A stretch of DNA of 64,000 nucleotides from Nisaea sediminum (lineage in GTDB: Bacteria > Pseudomonadota > Alphaproteobacteria > Thalassobaculales > Thalassobaculaceae), in assembly GCF_014904705.1 (NCBI RefSeq), contig NZ_JACZCQ010000013.1:1-64000 (forward strand), in the 5' to 3' direction. Each line of letters starts with the position of its first letter. The first letter of the stretch is position 1. The notes under the pieces are model-generated. The model made no database searches, was not told the origin of the DNA, and saw only the letters and a program-made list of their open reading frames with translations. Positions 13,228 to 17,190 of this stretch are shown here, one piece after another. The position numbers and the translations under genes were made by a program.

Positions 13228-13528
13228 TGCATAATATGAGCTTCACCTGACGCCTAACGAATTCGCTATACGTAAACGTCATAAATTATGGTTTGGGATC
13301 AATTCGTTATATTGCTCTCACAATCTCGCACCGACATAAAAGTTATTTCGCAAAGGTGCTATGATACTTTAACCGACCTTATCAATTTGCTACGATTTCA
13401 TCTTCAACGCGCCATTCAATGTCCAATTAATCGCATTTTTGCGCATTCACCCATAAACTCGTTGACATCACGCAATAACAACCCCATTAGTTTTAAATTA
13501 CATATATTATACGCTTAGGGTCGCTAAG
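13228..13528. promoter_or_regulatory. AT-rich left border of the accessory island, with promoter-like sequences
   Basis: Base composition drops sharply here compared with the GC-rich gene before it, marking the start of the AT-rich island. There is a TTGACA at 13462-13467 and a TATTAT at 13505-13510 just before the XRE gene, but they are too far apart to be one promoter. No terminator with a clear T run was found after 13227 and no coding frame was recognised. Confidence 0.4.
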
Positions 13529-13777
13529 ATGATTGAACAATCTGGGACAGCTCACTGGTATGTGCATAAAGCGCGGACCCTTCGCATTTCGGCGAAGCTT
13601 ACGCTCAATAAACTTGCGACTTTGGCCGATATTTCTCGGCAGACCGCGACAAAGATTGAGAAGAATCACCCAGTAACCGAAGTTATAGCGGAAAAACATT
13701 TTAGCGCTTTAAACGACGCTCTTGGTGGCAAATTGCTACGCGACGATCACGTTAAGAGTTTTCCATTTAAGGGGTAG
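13529..13777 (+). CDS. Small XRE-family helix-turn-helix regulator (82 aa)
   Basis: DNA-binding protein with a Cro/CI-type HTH at about residues 16-65; the helices ISAKLTLNKLATLADIS and RQTATKIEKN fit the fold. It is short and has no second domain, as in regulators of toxin-antitoxin or defence operons. It starts at ATG 13529 with no strong ribosome binding site, and a TATTAT box ends 18 nt upstream, so a short or leaderless transcript is possible. Three small genes follow at once (4 bp, overlap, 1 bp), which suggests that it controls them. Codon use is AT-rich, unlike the flanking chromosome. Confidence 0.75.
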   Translation: MIEQSGTAHWYVHKARTLRISAKLTLNKLATLADISRQTATKIEKNHPVTEVIAEKHFSALNDALGGKLLRDDHVKSFPFKG

Positions 13778-13781
13778 CAAC

Positions 13782-13946
13782 ATGAGTCATATTCTTCACG
13801 AATTAGAGAATTTTTTAGATAAGATAGTCTTTCGCTCTTACTATCAAAAGATAGAGCGCGAACAAGAAGAAGCGAAGGTTATGCAAAAATTTGTCGCGGC
13901 AAAATTTAGCCGCGGCAATGTCTCAATTCAGTTCGGTCGTTTCTAG
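13782..13946 (+). CDS. Small hypothetical protein in the XRE operon (54 aa)
   Basis: Charged helical protein with an EREQEEAKVMQKF stretch and no membrane segment. The ATG at 13782 is preceded by AAGGGG at a good distance, and the gene lies 4 bp after the XRE gene. Its last 29 bp overlap the next gene in another frame, which implies translational coupling. No family was recognised. Because it is so small, its reality rests on the ribosome binding site, the spacing and the coupling. Confidence 0.5.
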   Translation: MSHILHELENFLDKIVFRSYYQKIEREQEEAKVMQKFVAAKFSRGNVSIQFGRF

Positions 13947-14613
13947 ATCGAAATTAATTTCACGGCCACATCAAGTGAAAAAGTACAAACATCAATTAGA
14001 TAGGCTTGTCAGCCATTACAACCATGTAGAGTATTTAGTGAAGACTTACGAGCTTCGCCAATACGAGGTACTGCTACCTGCTATAAATGAATTGAGATAT
14101 GCAGGCCGCAGAGCAATAGATATCATGGCGCTGCTCTCTAAAGAAAATGAAGCCGAACCCAATTCGGAAAAAGTTGATCAATATTTCGTCGATGCTGAAC
14201 TTGCATGCATCAGAGCCAAGCACGATATAGTCGACGCGCTCGTGCTTTACGGTCTTTCTCGAATTCAAAGCTTAAATGAAAAATATGATTTCGATGAGCT
14301 AGTCGCAGCTTTTCCCAAATTCAACTATTTCTCAAAATTTTTACTCTTCGCGAGACGCGAAATTCAACGGTCGCGCGAATTTCGGGAAGAAAGGAATGAA
14401 ATATACTCCGCCTTGTATGAGAAATTAGTGCCCGACTTTCTCGATTTCATGGACGAAGTAGATGCCAATTTCGACCAACTTGTCCAAGGAGAAAGAAAAC
14501 GACAGTATTTTCAAACCCTCTCTCCTCAGATTTCGTTTGGGTGGATCTTAGGTGGCCTCGGAATAGGAGGAAGCGCAATCCTCGCTCTAATCCAATATAT
14601 ATGGCGAGGATGA
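13918..14613 (+). CDS. Helical protein with a C-terminal membrane anchor, unknown family (231 aa)
   Basis: Residues 1-200 are strongly helical and charged, with a likely coiled-coil tendency in the SREFREERNEIYSALYEKL region. Residues about 205-228 form a single hydrophobic helix (WILGGLGIGGSAILALIQY), so the protein is probably tail-anchored with its bulk in the cytoplasm. I use ATG 13918; a TTG at 13891 is also in frame. It overlaps the 54-aa gene and is followed after 1 bp by another membrane protein gene. I do not recognise the family. Its place in an XRE-led operon suggests a toxin-like or defence role, but that is inference. Confidence 0.65.
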   Translation: MSQFSSVVSRSKLISRPHQVKKYKHQLDRLVSHYNHVEYLVKTYELRQYEVLLPAINELRYAGRRAIDIMALLSKENEAEPNSEKVDQYFVDAELACIRAKHDIVDALVLYGLSRIQSLNEKYDFDELVAAFPKFNYFSKFLLFARREIQRSREFREERNEIYSALYEKLVPDFLDFMDEVDANFDQLVQGERKRQYFQTLSPQISFGWILGGLGIGGSAILALIQYIWRG

Positions 14614-14614
14614 A

Positions 14615-14926
14615 GTGATTGATGATATCGCCAGTTTTGTTCTTACAAATTTCAATGCAATTTCAGCGATTGCAGGAGCACTCGGAGCTATTATATACAC
14701 GCTAAATCACTTTAGAGGTCATAATAATTTTCGCGTAGATGGAATGATGACTTTTGCAGGTGGATTTTACTCCGCTCCAGTTATTATTCTATTTGCAGTA
14801 TGCACTGTGAAGCCTGAATACTTTCAGAAAATTCCGAATGTTAATTTTTACGCCTTTCTACTAACAGTTTACATTGCATGGCAATCTTTATCTTTAATAA
14901 TAAGAAGCAAAAAAAGACAAATTTGA
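14615..14926 (+). CDS. Small integral membrane protein (103 aa)
   Basis: Three predicted membrane helices at about 8-30 (FNAISAIAGALGAIIYTL), 46-63 (MMTFAGGFYSAPVIILFAV) and 77-95 (FYAFLLTVYIAWQSLSLII), with a basic C-terminal tail (RSKKRQ). The GTG start at 14615 lies one base after the upstream stop, with GCGAGGA before it, so translation is coupled. It is the last gene of the XRE operon. No known family was recognised. A membrane effector or a partner of the anchored protein upstream is a reasonable guess. Confidence 0.65.
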   Translation: MIDDIASFVLTNFNAISAIAGALGAIIYTLNHFRGHNNFRVDGMMTFAGGFYSAPVIILFAVCTVKPEYFQKIPNVNFYAFLLTVYIAWQSLSLIIRSKKRQI

Positions 14927-15042
14927 AAATATTATCTTTTTAGGAACATATTATTAACTAAATAAATACACAAATAATTTATCTTTTAGCTCTCGCAAAA
15001 TTATAATTTACTGAAATAAATGCGAAAAATTCGCCCCTCCGG

Positions 15043-15070
15043 GAATTGATGCGACACGCAACTTAATTTG
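15043..15070 (+). repeat. REP-like repeat copy A
   Basis: Diverged copy of the island repeat: gaatt, then gcgacacgc, then aacttaatt. It lies exactly 60 bp before copy B in the same orientation. Confidence 0.5.
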
Positions 15071-15102
15071 CGCTTTAATTCCACAGCAACATTATTTTGA
15101 CA

Positions 15103-15130
15103 GAATTAAGGGGACACGTCACTTAATTAG
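15103..15130 (+). repeat. REP-like repeat copy B
   Basis: Best-formed copy: gaattaag, then gggacacgt, then cacttaatt. It forms a large imperfect hairpin with the inverted copy C (15164-15189), like a paired REP element. Confidence 0.65.
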
Positions 15131-15163
15131 CGGATAGCAACTCGTCGTCCCGGGGCGGACCTG

Positions 15164-15189
15164 GATTTAAGTCGTGTGTCCCCTTATTC
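15164..15189 (-). repeat. REP-like repeat copy C (inverted)
   Basis: Reverse-orientation copy; read on the minus strand it is gaataag, ggggacacac, gacttaaat. With copy B it encloses a 33-bp GC-rich spacer. Confidence 0.65.
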
Positions 15190-15198
15190 GGGCTTTTC

Positions 15199-15561
15199 TT
15201 AGCTCTGCTCGCGTCTATTGCTACTTGGCTCACTAACACGAGCGCGCGCGACAGCCCATAGGCTCAAAAAACCTGAATACGGGCAGAAAATTTCTCTGCT
15301 ATCCGTCAGGGTTTTAAAATTGTGGCACGTCCCTTGGCCAAATATGATTGTCCAAGGCTCCCCATTGAAGATCTTGGAGTCGAGCTCATTTTGCCGTTCT
15401 GGCGCTATGGCAAAAGGCGATTGCGCAACTGCATGAGTCAAACCTCGAATAAGAGCTTCACCGCCATCTTTCCGTGAACCTCTGGAAGACATCATGAGTT
15501 CCGTTAACGTTTCGTCGCCTTCGAAAATTGTTCGCTCGATCAAAGCGATCCATATTACCAA
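15199..15561 (-). pseudogene. Possible degraded or frameshifted gene
   Basis: This minus-strand frame encodes up to 120 residues with an amino acid mix that looks protein-like (segments LTELMMSSRGSRKDGGEALI and NGEPWTIIFGQGTCHNF). It has only a TTG start and a stop just upstream. A second minus-strand frame beginning at ATG 15676 (MDFWVIDIFKVALQVKSLNW) runs into it around 15560, shifted by one frame. The two together could be one gene broken by a frameshift. No family was recognised and the frame overlaps the start of the HNH gene on the other strand, so it may also be spurious. Confidence 0.22.
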
Positions 15562-15653
15562 CTCTGTCAGTGCGCGTTATCGGCGCTTCGCGAAACTCAG
15601 GTTTAAGCGCGAGCTTCCAATTTAGTGACTTTACCTGCAAAGCCACTTTGAAA

Positions 15654-16367
15654 ATGTCTATCACCCAAAAATCCATAAAAATTCTCTGGTCCTCGGCAGG
15701 CGGTCGCTGCTCCTTTCCTAATTGCTGGCAGCGTCTTTGCTTTCACGAGGCTGAAAAATCGGCGCCTTACACACTCGGGGAGATGGCACATATCTCCGGT
15801 GAAAAACCGGGGTCCAATCGGCATGACCCTGCTCAGACGGACAGCGAGCGAGATGATTATCAAAATTTGATATTGTTGTGTCCGACGCACCACGCACTAA
15901 TCGACCGTAAAGAGAATGAGCTTATCTATACGGTTCAGGATTTGCTTCAGATGAAGGCCGCGCACGAAGCGCGGGTGTTGGAACAAATGGAGATGGTCCA
16001 CGCGCCGACAAAGACAGCTGCTGCCCGCTTGATCCTTCCCCTACTCGAAGAGAATAGGCAGACTTGGCTCCACTGCGGCCCGTCGTCTGAACTCGCCCGC
16101 AGCCAACCTCATAACCAAGCAGCACATGCTGTCTGGGTGTCGGAACGTCTCTCGGTTATTGTTCCGAACAACCGAAAGCTCGCAGATCTGCTGGAAAAAT
16201 ATAAAGACCTCTTTGCTCCCAACGAACAAACCGCAGTAGCCGCTTTCTTGACTCATGCAAGGAGTTACGAGCTATGGGTGCAGGACGTAGTGCCATACGC
16301 AGCGGTAAAGCGTTTCCCGATCGAATTTGATAATCTTATTAGAGGAATTTCAAATGGGGGCACATAG
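15654..16367 (+). CDS. HNH endonuclease-domain protein (237 aa)
   Basis: Residues 10-100 form an HNH (beta-beta-alpha metal) nuclease domain with structural cysteines Cys19 (RCSFPNC, with Cys24) and Cys76. The likely catalytic His46 lies in EMAHISGE, followed by Asn71 (YQNLILLC) and His79-His80. The motif DRKENE-YTVQDLLQMKAAHE is usual for nucleases of this group. The C-terminal 130 residues are an unrecognised helical domain that could sense or bind a partner. I chose ATG 15654; the frame is open upstream but enters DNA with no matching sequence. The end overlaps the next gene by 14 bp. A role in DNA cleavage for defence is likely but not proven. Confidence 0.75.
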   Translation: MSITQKSIKILWSSAGGRCSFPNCWQRLCFHEAEKSAPYTLGEMAHISGEKPGSNRHDPAQTDSERDDYQNLILLCPTHHALIDRKENELIYTVQDLLQMKAAHEARVLEQMEMVHAPTKTAAARLILPLLEENRQTWLHCGPSSELARSQPHNQAAHAVWVSERLSVIVPNNRKLADLLEKYKDLFAPNEQTAVAAFLTHARSYELWVQDVVPYAAVKRFPIEFDNLIRGISNGGT

Positions 16368-16764
16368 CGATAATTTTCCATGGCCAAGCCACTATGGAAA
16401 TTACAATTTCTTCGAAGAACGGCTGTCTAACCACAGCAAGGTTGCATCTCTCAGGTCGCAAGGGGACGGCATCTATCAATTGACCCTAAAGCGAGGCGAA
16501 ACGCTGCGAGTTTTTATTTGCGAATGTTACGCTTTTGGTATTGCCGAGTACATGGAAACAATTGAACAAATTGGAAAACTAAACGCCGTCATAATCAATT
16601 CTGCATGGTGCGGTTATTCACCCGACGCCAAAAGGTTTTGTCGTGAATCTCGTGTCGGGCTTTTCACGATAGGCGAGTTCATGGCGGCTTTAAATCGCCC
16701 TAGATATTGGGATTACTTGACCGACGACGAGAAAGAATACTTCAAAAAACAAGGCTGGCTTTGA
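16354..16764 (+). CDS. Hypothetical protein, possibly Mrr/restriction-endonuclease-like fold (136 aa)
   Basis: Small soluble alpha/beta protein. The stretch LNAVIINSAWCGYSPDAKRF, followed by VGLFTIGEFMAAL, resembles the C-terminal half of Mrr-type restriction domains. There a strand is followed by a 'xFTxxAxxxA' helix and a strand with a Gly-Glu pair. A clear catalytic D/E-x-K was not seen, so it may be inactive or only distantly related. The start is ATG 16354 with AGAGGA 8-13 nt upstream, inside the HNH gene end. Its stop overlaps the TTG start of the next gene, so the three genes are translationally coupled. Confidence 0.55.
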   Translation: MGAHSDNFPWPSHYGNYNFFEERLSNHSKVASLRSQGDGIYQLTLKRGETLRVFICECYAFGIAEYMETIEQIGKLNAVIINSAWCGYSPDAKRFCRESRVGLFTIGEFMAALNRPRYWDYLTDDEKEYFKKQGWL

Positions 16765-17099
16765 ACTATAGTTTAGAAATTTATGGCTTTGGATCGGCAT
16801 TTACCAATGCTGATATGGTCAACGATATTGACTTTCTAATCATCCACCGGGACGCTAGTCAGACCTCATGTCGACTTGCTATTCAATGCAAACAGCATAT
16901 CGAAAATAAAGTCGACCACGCGCATGTTACGATGCTTTCGGCATCTGAAGAATCCTATTTCCAATTCATCAAAACTGCCCGCGCGACGTACCTTGGAAAC
17001 ATTAATGAAGATCACATTGACCAAGATGTTTCTGCCATTTGCCAAAATGCCCAACAAATCAGAAACTTAACCTTCTCTCTTCTGTCCGAGATCCGCTAA
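16761..17099 (+). CDS. Nucleotidyltransferase-fold protein (112 aa)
   Basis: The N terminus reads YGFGSAF...NDIDFLIIH, matching the nucleotidyltransferase signature hG-S-x9-D-x-D-h (Gly11-Ser12, Asp22, Asp24). Such proteins transfer nucleotides to proteins or RNA; minimal versions act as antitoxins or toxins. I chose TTG 16761 because it forms a TTGA overlap with the upstream stop; no in-frame ATG precedes the motif. The rest (30-112) is helical. It is the last gene of the HNH operon, and a REP-like repeat begins at its stop codon. The function in this trio is unknown. Confidence 0.6.
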   Translation: MNYSLEIYGFGSAFTNADMVNDIDFLIIHRDASQTSCRLAIQCKQHIENKVDHAHVTMLSASEESYFQFIKTARATYLGNINEDHIDQDVSAICQNAQQIRNLTFSLLSEIR

Positions 17100-17122
17100 T
17101 TTAGGGGACACGTGACTCAATT
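17097..17122 (+). repeat. REP-like repeat copy D
   Basis: taatttag, then gggacacgt, then gactcaatt. Same orientation as copy B. It starts at the stop codon of the nucleotidyltransferase-like gene, closing the island. Confidence 0.6.
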
Positions 17123-17190
17123 CGCCTTTTACTCCGTAGCCACACGATCTGGCTACAGTTGCGGCCTGCGTTGTCCATTTTCTGAATTCC

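Follow-up and report, generated by a model that had tools for sequence, protein, structure and literature searches.

Three small overlapping genes in the window, the 64,000-nucleotide stretch of DNA analysed here, form a real conserved set and not a chance neighbourhood. They encode an effector with an HNH nuclease head, a small protein that we call ORF2, and a putative minimal nucleotidyltransferase (NTase), and genes for the three proteins stand in that order at 31 loci. Judging from the genes with which the trio is associated, the cassette is very probably a defence system, with the head of the effector as its interchangeable killing part. A more specific reading has, in our judgement, about an even chance of being right: a three-gene, effector-modular anti-phage system of the abortive-infection type, with ORF2 as the link through which the NTase controls the effector.

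The effector gene (15654..16367, + strand) encodes a Cap5/PDC-M68A-type HNH head (residues 1 to ~116) and a C-terminal helical domain (residues ~119-237; 16008..16364, + strand), the latter delineated by alignments of 22 and 14 rows and proposed here as a control surface. ORF2 (16354..16764, + strand) is a small switch-like protein without a known family; its Tyr59 is encoded at 16528-16530. The NTase gene (16761..17099, + strand) encodes the predicted minimal nucleotidyltransferase, with G11 and S12, D22-x-D24 and, by alignment, His55. The first two genes overlap by 14 bp and the last two by 4 bp; these coordinates and overlaps are as an earlier, sequence-only reading of the window had given them. 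The NTase start is a TTG codon at 16761. The sole ATG listed for this gene is at 16815, and a start there would leave out the motif's GS.

The cassette sits in an island of low G+C (13250..17150 in a composition profile, limits approximate), within which 500-base windows have a G+C content of 0.35-0.53, against ~0.65-0.72 outside. The value for the cassette itself is 0.473, compared with 0.633 for the remainder of the 64,000 nucleotides. Of 146 genomes in the relatives set, the window's own is the single one with ORF2; all four same-genus genomes searched lack it. Because of this absence and the low G+C, acquisition of the cassette from elsewhere fits.

A repeat search found 28-nt imperfect direct repeats that bracket the cassette. 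The left copy lies at 15104..15131 (+ strand); the right copy, at 17098..17125 (+ strand), is 86% identical to it and overlaps the NTase stop codon. A further direct copy of the same family is found at 15044-15071 and an inverted, shorter one at 15164-15184. The sequence-only reading had taken repeats here for REP-like borders that fit a mobile unit. We rejected REP elements as the borders, since the repeat is not enriched genome-wide: GGGGACACGT has only two mismatch-free sites in the genome of 5.0 Mb, and allowing up to one mismatch gives 57 + 46 sites, a number equal to the 52 + 51 sites of a reversed-pattern control. Of the 7-base core GGGGACA, three copies lie within 1.5 kb of the cassette in the window, and at some of the relatives it is found only here and there. 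These are local copies, then, not members of a genome-wide REP family, and the direct repeats may be what a single insertion left behind. The idea of a mobile unit stands on other grounds, namely plasmid copies, integrases, low G+C and absence from the same genus.

How widely is the trio conserved? A search of public genomes with ORF2 yielded 12 relatives with 51-72% identity, in Mesorhizobium, Nitratireductor, Brevundimonas, Roseicyclus, Novosphingobium (two), Martelella, Vogesella, Pseudogulbenkiania, Citrobacter, a Bathymodiolus symbiont and Curvibacter, which we take to be Alpha-, Beta- and Gammaproteobacteria. An HNH gene lies upstream in 12 of these 12 genome-contig matches and an NTase gene downstream in 11; in the twelfth (L013) the available contig sequence ends. 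All ORF2 queries together gave 32 distinct records: 4 + 8 + 1 plasmids, 12 genome contigs, three genomes besides the window's own, and 1 + 1 + 2 viral contigs. An HNH gene accompanies ORF2 in 32 of 32, a count that includes four records of the queries themselves and five (H4, H58, H59, H62 and H64) in which the HNH gene is known from feature names alone. Plasmid copies come from Novosphingobium and Acinetobacter and, more distantly, Klebsiella. Using the HNH protein as query, we reached further clades, carried on plasmids of Vibrio, Ensifer, Phaeobacter, Rhizobium and Polymorphobacter, and profile searches added trio loci in further genomes. The earlier suggestion to look for the same gene order elsewhere is thus answered by 31 loci over a wide distance, and the opposite prospect, that the genes would rarely be found together, is contradicted by them.

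The count of 31 includes the near-identical pairs L010/L017 and L011/L012, a locus whose NTase is broken (L031) and one whose NTase is shortened to 70 aa beside IS66 genes (L003). Left out were four loci at which the available sequence ends (L013, L019, L020 and L021), three that are the same contigs as others (L018, L043 and L044, the same as L017, L022 and L023), four that have only the HNH head in common (L024 and L033-L035), and the broken locus L059, for which 9,000 of 12,647 bases were examined. Junctions were measured at 28 of the 31 loci: effector and ORF2 genes range from 3 bp apart to a 17-bp overlap, and ORF2 and NTase genes from 4 bp apart to overlapping by at most 104 bp, according to which start is taken.

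The effector's C-terminal domain was detected in five of 398 genomes (~1%) in an even sample of the window's phylum, its own genome included and one false match removed, in two of 369 in an even sample of another class, and in three of 289 in the sample of the window's class: its own genome, the broken L059 and one other. Two candidates were dropped along the way, G279 as a TPR-type protein by eye and G153 at E 7.9e-4 with the trio absent. Phage records had no matches to clade B ORF2 or to the swapped-head effector described below, plasmids none to that effector, and viral contigs none to it or to clade C ORF2.

The sequence-only reading had described the effector as an HNH nuclease with an extra C-terminal domain, and both parts are borne out. 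The head matches PF13391 (HNH_2) in Pfam above the cut-off (E 9.1e-7), and His46 and Asn71 of the HNH motif are invariant in an alignment of 16 sequences. Among PADLOC profiles it matches PDC-M68A (E 1e-31, residues 2-114) and SAVED_HNH (E 2.1e-30, residues 2-116); the SAVED_HNH and Effector profiles reach no further than residue 127 of 237. The best match to a PDB sequence is 9om4_A, a 435-aa 'HNH endonuclease' (E 1.8e-28), followed by SAVED proteins and Cap5 at E 2e-17 and weaker, among them 7rwk_A (Cap5; E 4e-17, query residues 2-111). All the PDB sequence matches are limited to the head, save two insignificant ones to designed proteins. Structure comparison points the same way. The predicted model has a pLDDT of 80.2, with residues 1-11, 13-15 and 30-42 below 50, and its top seven Foldseek matches are Cap5 structures over 115-117 columns (probability 1.00, E 0.012-0.048); none of the matches has an E-value below 0.001.

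The C-terminal domain, of ~120 residues, is predicted to be an all-helical bundle, with pLDDT of 84-97 in its blocks and 71 in the last. Its motifs, N..GP..W..PNN..H..FP, are present in every clade aligned (22 rows). A convincing PDB fold match was not found with Foldseek, and neither the window protein nor its relatives have a Pfam or PADLOC match at cut-off in this region. This unnamed helical domain occupies the place of SAVED in Cap5.

A pointer to the division of labour within the effector comes from two loci, L039 (in genome G549) and L055 (G896), in which another head is joined to the same helical domain and followed by ORF2 and the NTase. The new head is a segment that, judged by eye, looks transmembrane. 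The L039 effector matches the C-domain profile at E 4e-13, L055 was found with the L039 protein as query (E 2.3e-19), and the 14-row alignment of the domain takes in both transmembrane-type relatives. Their ORF2 proteins are shorter (104 and 100 aa) and keep the tyrosine. Compared by hhalign with profiles built without them (17 other sequences for ORF2), the ORF2 pair scored a probability of 95.15 (E 2.9e-8; 94.11 and 79.34 singly) and the NTase pair 96.30 (E 1.7e-9; 93.57 and 92.63 singly). Shuffled controls, 20 for each protein, reached a probability of at most 1.72%. The swap, from two loci, supports a split between a head that kills and a control unit that is conserved: where heads change and the C-terminal domain is shared, the head would kill, and the domain, ORF2 and the NTase would gate it. 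These last three quite probably act together as a sensing or gating unit. That a Cap5-type HNH head occurs without SAVED also suggests an exchange of effector heads between sensing modules that are not related.

What surrounds the trio argues for a role in defence. There are 174 neighbour ORFs within 4 kb, of which 148 were listed; we hand-picked 85 of these, mainly longer ones, and with three added from L055 and L060 the set came to 88 proteins from 26 loci. They match 59 PADLOC families at E<=1e-20 (families, not a protein count), against two families and three member matches for 48 window ORFs outside 12-22 kb; the enrichment is not a rate, because neighbours were hand-picked, one protein can match several families and the single control window is from another genome. 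At least seven neighbour genes at five of the 26 loci strongly match known or candidate defence genes. They include Drt3a, Drt3b and PDC-S01 at L002 (the first two annotated, and also in the PADLOC scan), DruH at L006, LmuB at L032 (both by PADLOC), a type IV restriction enzyme at L015, a single protein that takes 11 PADLOC families, and Shedu at L030 (from the record annotation, and also in the PADLOC scan). When 10 long neighbours were scanned singly against PADLOC, four matched, namely the DruH, type IV restriction, LmuB and PDC-S01 genes, and six did not. IetA, PDC-S42 and PDC-S66 are also among the neighbour matches listed, unmapped to loci. A separate observation concerns L060, where a TIR-like gene, identified by eye, overlaps the start of the HNH gene by about 11 bp. 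The sequence-only reading had proposed a possible new defence cassette, and the conserved order, the exchangeable head and the defence-gene neighbours favour it, by association only.

The same surroundings could instead mark an accessory of mobile elements, serving not immunity but the maintenance of plasmids, exclusion, or a barrier to plasmids akin to restriction. The copies on plasmids speak for this, as do integrases annotated no more than 5 kb away at L002, L029 and L032 and an integrase-like ORF, recognised by eye, that adjoins the HNH gene at L050. Against it, some neighbours strongly match anti-phage genes, and a transmembrane head suits killing more than the exclusion of DNA. We give this explanation little credence and hold to defence as the probable function of the cassette.

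If the head kills, how is it controlled? ORF2, which is 136 aa long in its window-type form, matches no Pfam, PADLOC or NCBIfam family even at E-values up to 10, and its profiles have no meaningful match among PDB sequences. Its family is nonetheless broad. Clade B, from Klebsiella and viral contigs, is homologous to the window type (hhalign probability 99.96). Clade C/D proteins are ~213 aa long; their C-terminal half is homologous to the window type (98.18, E 4.7e-14) and weakly resembles their own N-terminal half (27.58, E 6.5e-4), and a tandem duplication is suggested by these alignments. Across 19 diverse members, with clades C/D represented by their C-terminal halves, Tyr59 is present in 19 of 19 and is the sole invariant column among the 100 columns with at most two gaps; no Asp, Glu or Lys is invariant in the 19. 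ORF2 had earlier been likened to part of the Mrr restriction fold. That likeness proved weak, amounting to one profile alignment with an Mrr-type neighbour of L055 (probability 27%, E 6.8e-4).

The NTase is 112 aa long. The sequence-only reading had called it a minimal nucleotidyltransferase with GS-x9-DxD, and the motif is plain to see: GS at residues 11-12, nine residues, then D22-x-D24. F10, G11, S12, D22 and D24 are invariant in 22 rows. Pfam leaves the window copy undecided, with Mrr_cat (E 0.0034) ahead of Polbeta (E 0.017) and both below the cut-off. The NTase family of the relatives is PF01909/PF18765, and L028 (E 1.1e-6) and L055 (E 1.1e-4) exceed the cut-off of PF01909; DUF6932 reaches its cut-off in the NTases of L028 and L039. 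Because of the motif and these matches, we prefer an NTase identity over Mrr_cat and regard the window protein as a minimal Pol-beta-type nucleotidyltransferase by sequence. PADLOC profiles PDC-S09 and PDC-M63A match relatives' NTases at about 1e-5 to 1e-3. Two PDB matches are weak and serve as leads only: DNA polymerase beta with the NTase profile (E 0.018) and a putative minimal nucleotidyltransferase with the L055 protein (E 0.82).

A different way to use such an enzyme would be to make a nucleotide signal, as in CBASS, which ORF2 or the helical domain would bind and so turn on the nuclease. The HNH head does resemble that of Cap5. Effector heads are also interchangeable in CBASS, as they appear to be here. 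No SAVED match accompanies the head, and the window NTase has no cyclase match in PADLOC at E up to 10. Two PADLOC cyclase profiles touch the NTase of one relative, L023, at E 0.023, but they are 261 and 310 positions long against 112 aa. On balance a second messenger is very unlikely.

Whether the NTase is catalytic turns partly on its third metal ligand. Sections of PMC7641770 give D39, D41 and D71 as the catalytic residues of MntA, the NTase of HEPN-MNT. By alignment and spacing, His55 corresponds to MntA D71: the distance from the second Asp is 31 residues in the window NTase and 30 in MntA. This position is His in 13 of the 22 NTases, the window's included, Asp in eight and Asn in one, and catalysis is therefore not assured. 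A dead NTase could serve with ORF2 as a binding scaffold, the three proteins forming a complex that senses phage nucleic acid or protein directly. The His or Asn in 14 of 22 NTases would be explained in this way, as would an ORF2 with no recognisable active site. A mere scaffold would have no need of F-G-S and D-x-D, which are kept in 22 of 22, or of the third Asp, kept in eight. We judge a scaffold distinctly unlikely and return to an NTase that acts on ORF2.

What might it transfer, and to what? MntA attaches AMPs to a HepT tyrosine, as reported in the same sections of PMC7641770. Because the sole invariant residue of ORF2 is likewise a tyrosine, Tyr59 is the natural candidate acceptor. In the mechanism that we propose, the NTase would nucleotidylate the candidate Tyr59 on ORF2, as MntA does the HepT tyrosine; ORF2 would act through the shared helical domain of the effector; and the killing head, a Cap5-type HNH DNase or a membrane protein, would then be let loose. 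By analogy with MntA, transfer to Tyr59 with the state of ORF2 deciding effector release has somewhat less than an even chance of being correct. The full picture, an undescribed module in which the NTase nucleotidylates the ORF2 tyrosine and ORF2, via the helical domain as receptor, unleashes interchangeable heads, seems to us rather unlikely to hold as a whole.

Does ORF2 switch the effector on, or hold it off? We lean slightly towards 'on', because two loci, L031 and L059, keep a full-length HNH protein with the NTase, or both ORF2 and the NTase, broken or missing. L031 has an NTase whose frame breaks after DxD; in L059 the ORF2 match stops past residue 33, and an NTase was not found in the 9,000 bases examined. 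The opposite arrangement is a toxin-antitoxin system: the NTase, with ORF2, would constantly neutralise an HNH or transmembrane toxin, and infection or plasmid loss would lift the block. Overlapping genes and several plasmid copies agree with this, and minimal NTases serve as antitoxins in HEPN-MNT, as sections of PMC7641770 describe. A strict pair of this kind predicts a lethal or mutated toxin at L031 and L059, where the HNH protein is full-length; these are two loci, and they could reflect the decay of dead loci. We consider a toxin-antitoxin system unlikely and still lean slightly towards an effector that ORF2 switches on.

What would the cassette add? It would amount to a defence system of three genes that brings a control domain and a switch protein of its own, neither of which has a model in the Pfam, PADLOC and NCBIfam scans made here. 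If the mechanism is right, protein nucleotidylation would gate an anti-phage effector, a logic between those of HEPN-MNT and CBASS in a member of neither. Nucleotidylation of Tyr59 would open the question of how minimal NTases control immune effectors other than HEPN RNases.

Three known systems come closest. CBASS shares the head of the effector, which is of the Cap5 type in sequence and fold. The effector here has no SAVED match, and its matches to SAVED proteins and Cap5 cover the head only; the partner NTase is a minimal one and not a CD-NTase, with no cyclase match for the window copy. Lacking matches both to SAVED or another receptor domain and to a CD-NTase cyclase, the cassette was not assigned to CBASS. 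HEPN-MNT, as far as sections of PMC7641770 describe it, has in common with the trio an operon of a minimal NTase and a nuclease and a conserved tyrosine in the partner protein, Tyr104 of HepT being the acceptor. The MntA motif is GSX10DXD, and the GSX9DXD of the window, one residue shorter, was counted as equivalent. The differences are that the effector has an HNH or another head, not HEPN, that a third protein, ORF2, bears the invariant tyrosine, and that the third Asp of MntA, D71, is His55 in the window and Asp in eight of 22 NTases. None of the three window proteins matches a HEPN family in Pfam, PADLOC or NCBIfam (RX4HXY toxin). Without a HEPN toxin and with His at the third catalytic position, the cassette falls outside HEPN-MNT as well.

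The third is the ABC-three-component (ABC-3C) system with an HNH effector, represented by L034. There a related HNH head is followed by a small overlapping gene, and beyond it lies a gene annotated as ABC-3C middle component 6, as well as one for a DUF2326 protein; the match to the window effector is confined to the head (query residues 10-117). In the window, ORF2 and the NTase follow the HNH gene, and the six island proteins scanned have no ABC ATPase or middle-component match in Pfam, PADLOC or NCBIfam, so membership was rejected. Narrower likenesses end at single parts. The match to PADLOC candidate PDC-M68A stops at the head; PDC-S09, PDC-M63A and Pfam DUF6932 match relatives' NTases only, not the helical domain or ORF2; and in place of the D...(E/Q)xK of Mrr and other PD-(D/E)xK proteins, ORF2 has its invariant Tyr. 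A description of the trio was not found in the literature searched, and one in bioRxiv or a supplement is possible. The original impression that the combination matches no named system thus holds as far as matches in PADLOC, Pfam, NCBIfam and the PDB go. With parts related to families already known, the cassette appears in kind to belong with the modular, effector-based anti-phage systems.

At two loci the HNH effector gene of the trio stands beside a damaged partner. On a Rhizobium leguminosarum plasmid, the gene for the minimal nucleotidyltransferase (NTase) is broken (L031:5316-5480); the break lies after the DxD motif, and both HNH and ORF2, the small protein, are full-length. Two sister plasmid records, compared for HNH-ORF2 only, carry the same pair. 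At the second locus, a full-length HNH gene (L059:2590-3303) is accompanied by an ORF2 truncated after residue 33. Beyond this cut, transposase-like sequence was seen by eye.

Other trios have additional neighbours. A gene judged TIR-domain-like by eye (L060:4500-5858) overlaps by about 11 bp the start of the HNH gene in a trio of clades C/D, the relatives with an ORF2 of ~213 aa; with this trio it perhaps makes up a four-gene version. Directly upstream of the trio in which a putative transmembrane segment replaces the HNH head lies an Mrr-like protein (L055:5129-5980), in which hydrophobic segments are visible by eye.

In the interval bracketed by the flanking repeats, the window has a minus-strand ORF (15199-15561), a candidate gene at best, immediately before the cassette. 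The low-G+C island holds three further genes (13529-13777, 13891-14613 and 14615-14926), possibly a second small cassette. One is an HTH gene, whose Pfam HTH_3 match scores 23 bits, equal to its cut-off; the Pfam scan gave no significant family match for the other two. Hydrophobic stretches were noted by eye in both non-HTH genes.

Finally, an Agrobacterium pTi protein (L035:3983-5413) has a related HNH head joined to what we take, by eye, to be a phosphorylase-like domain; this protein is a further reuse of the head.
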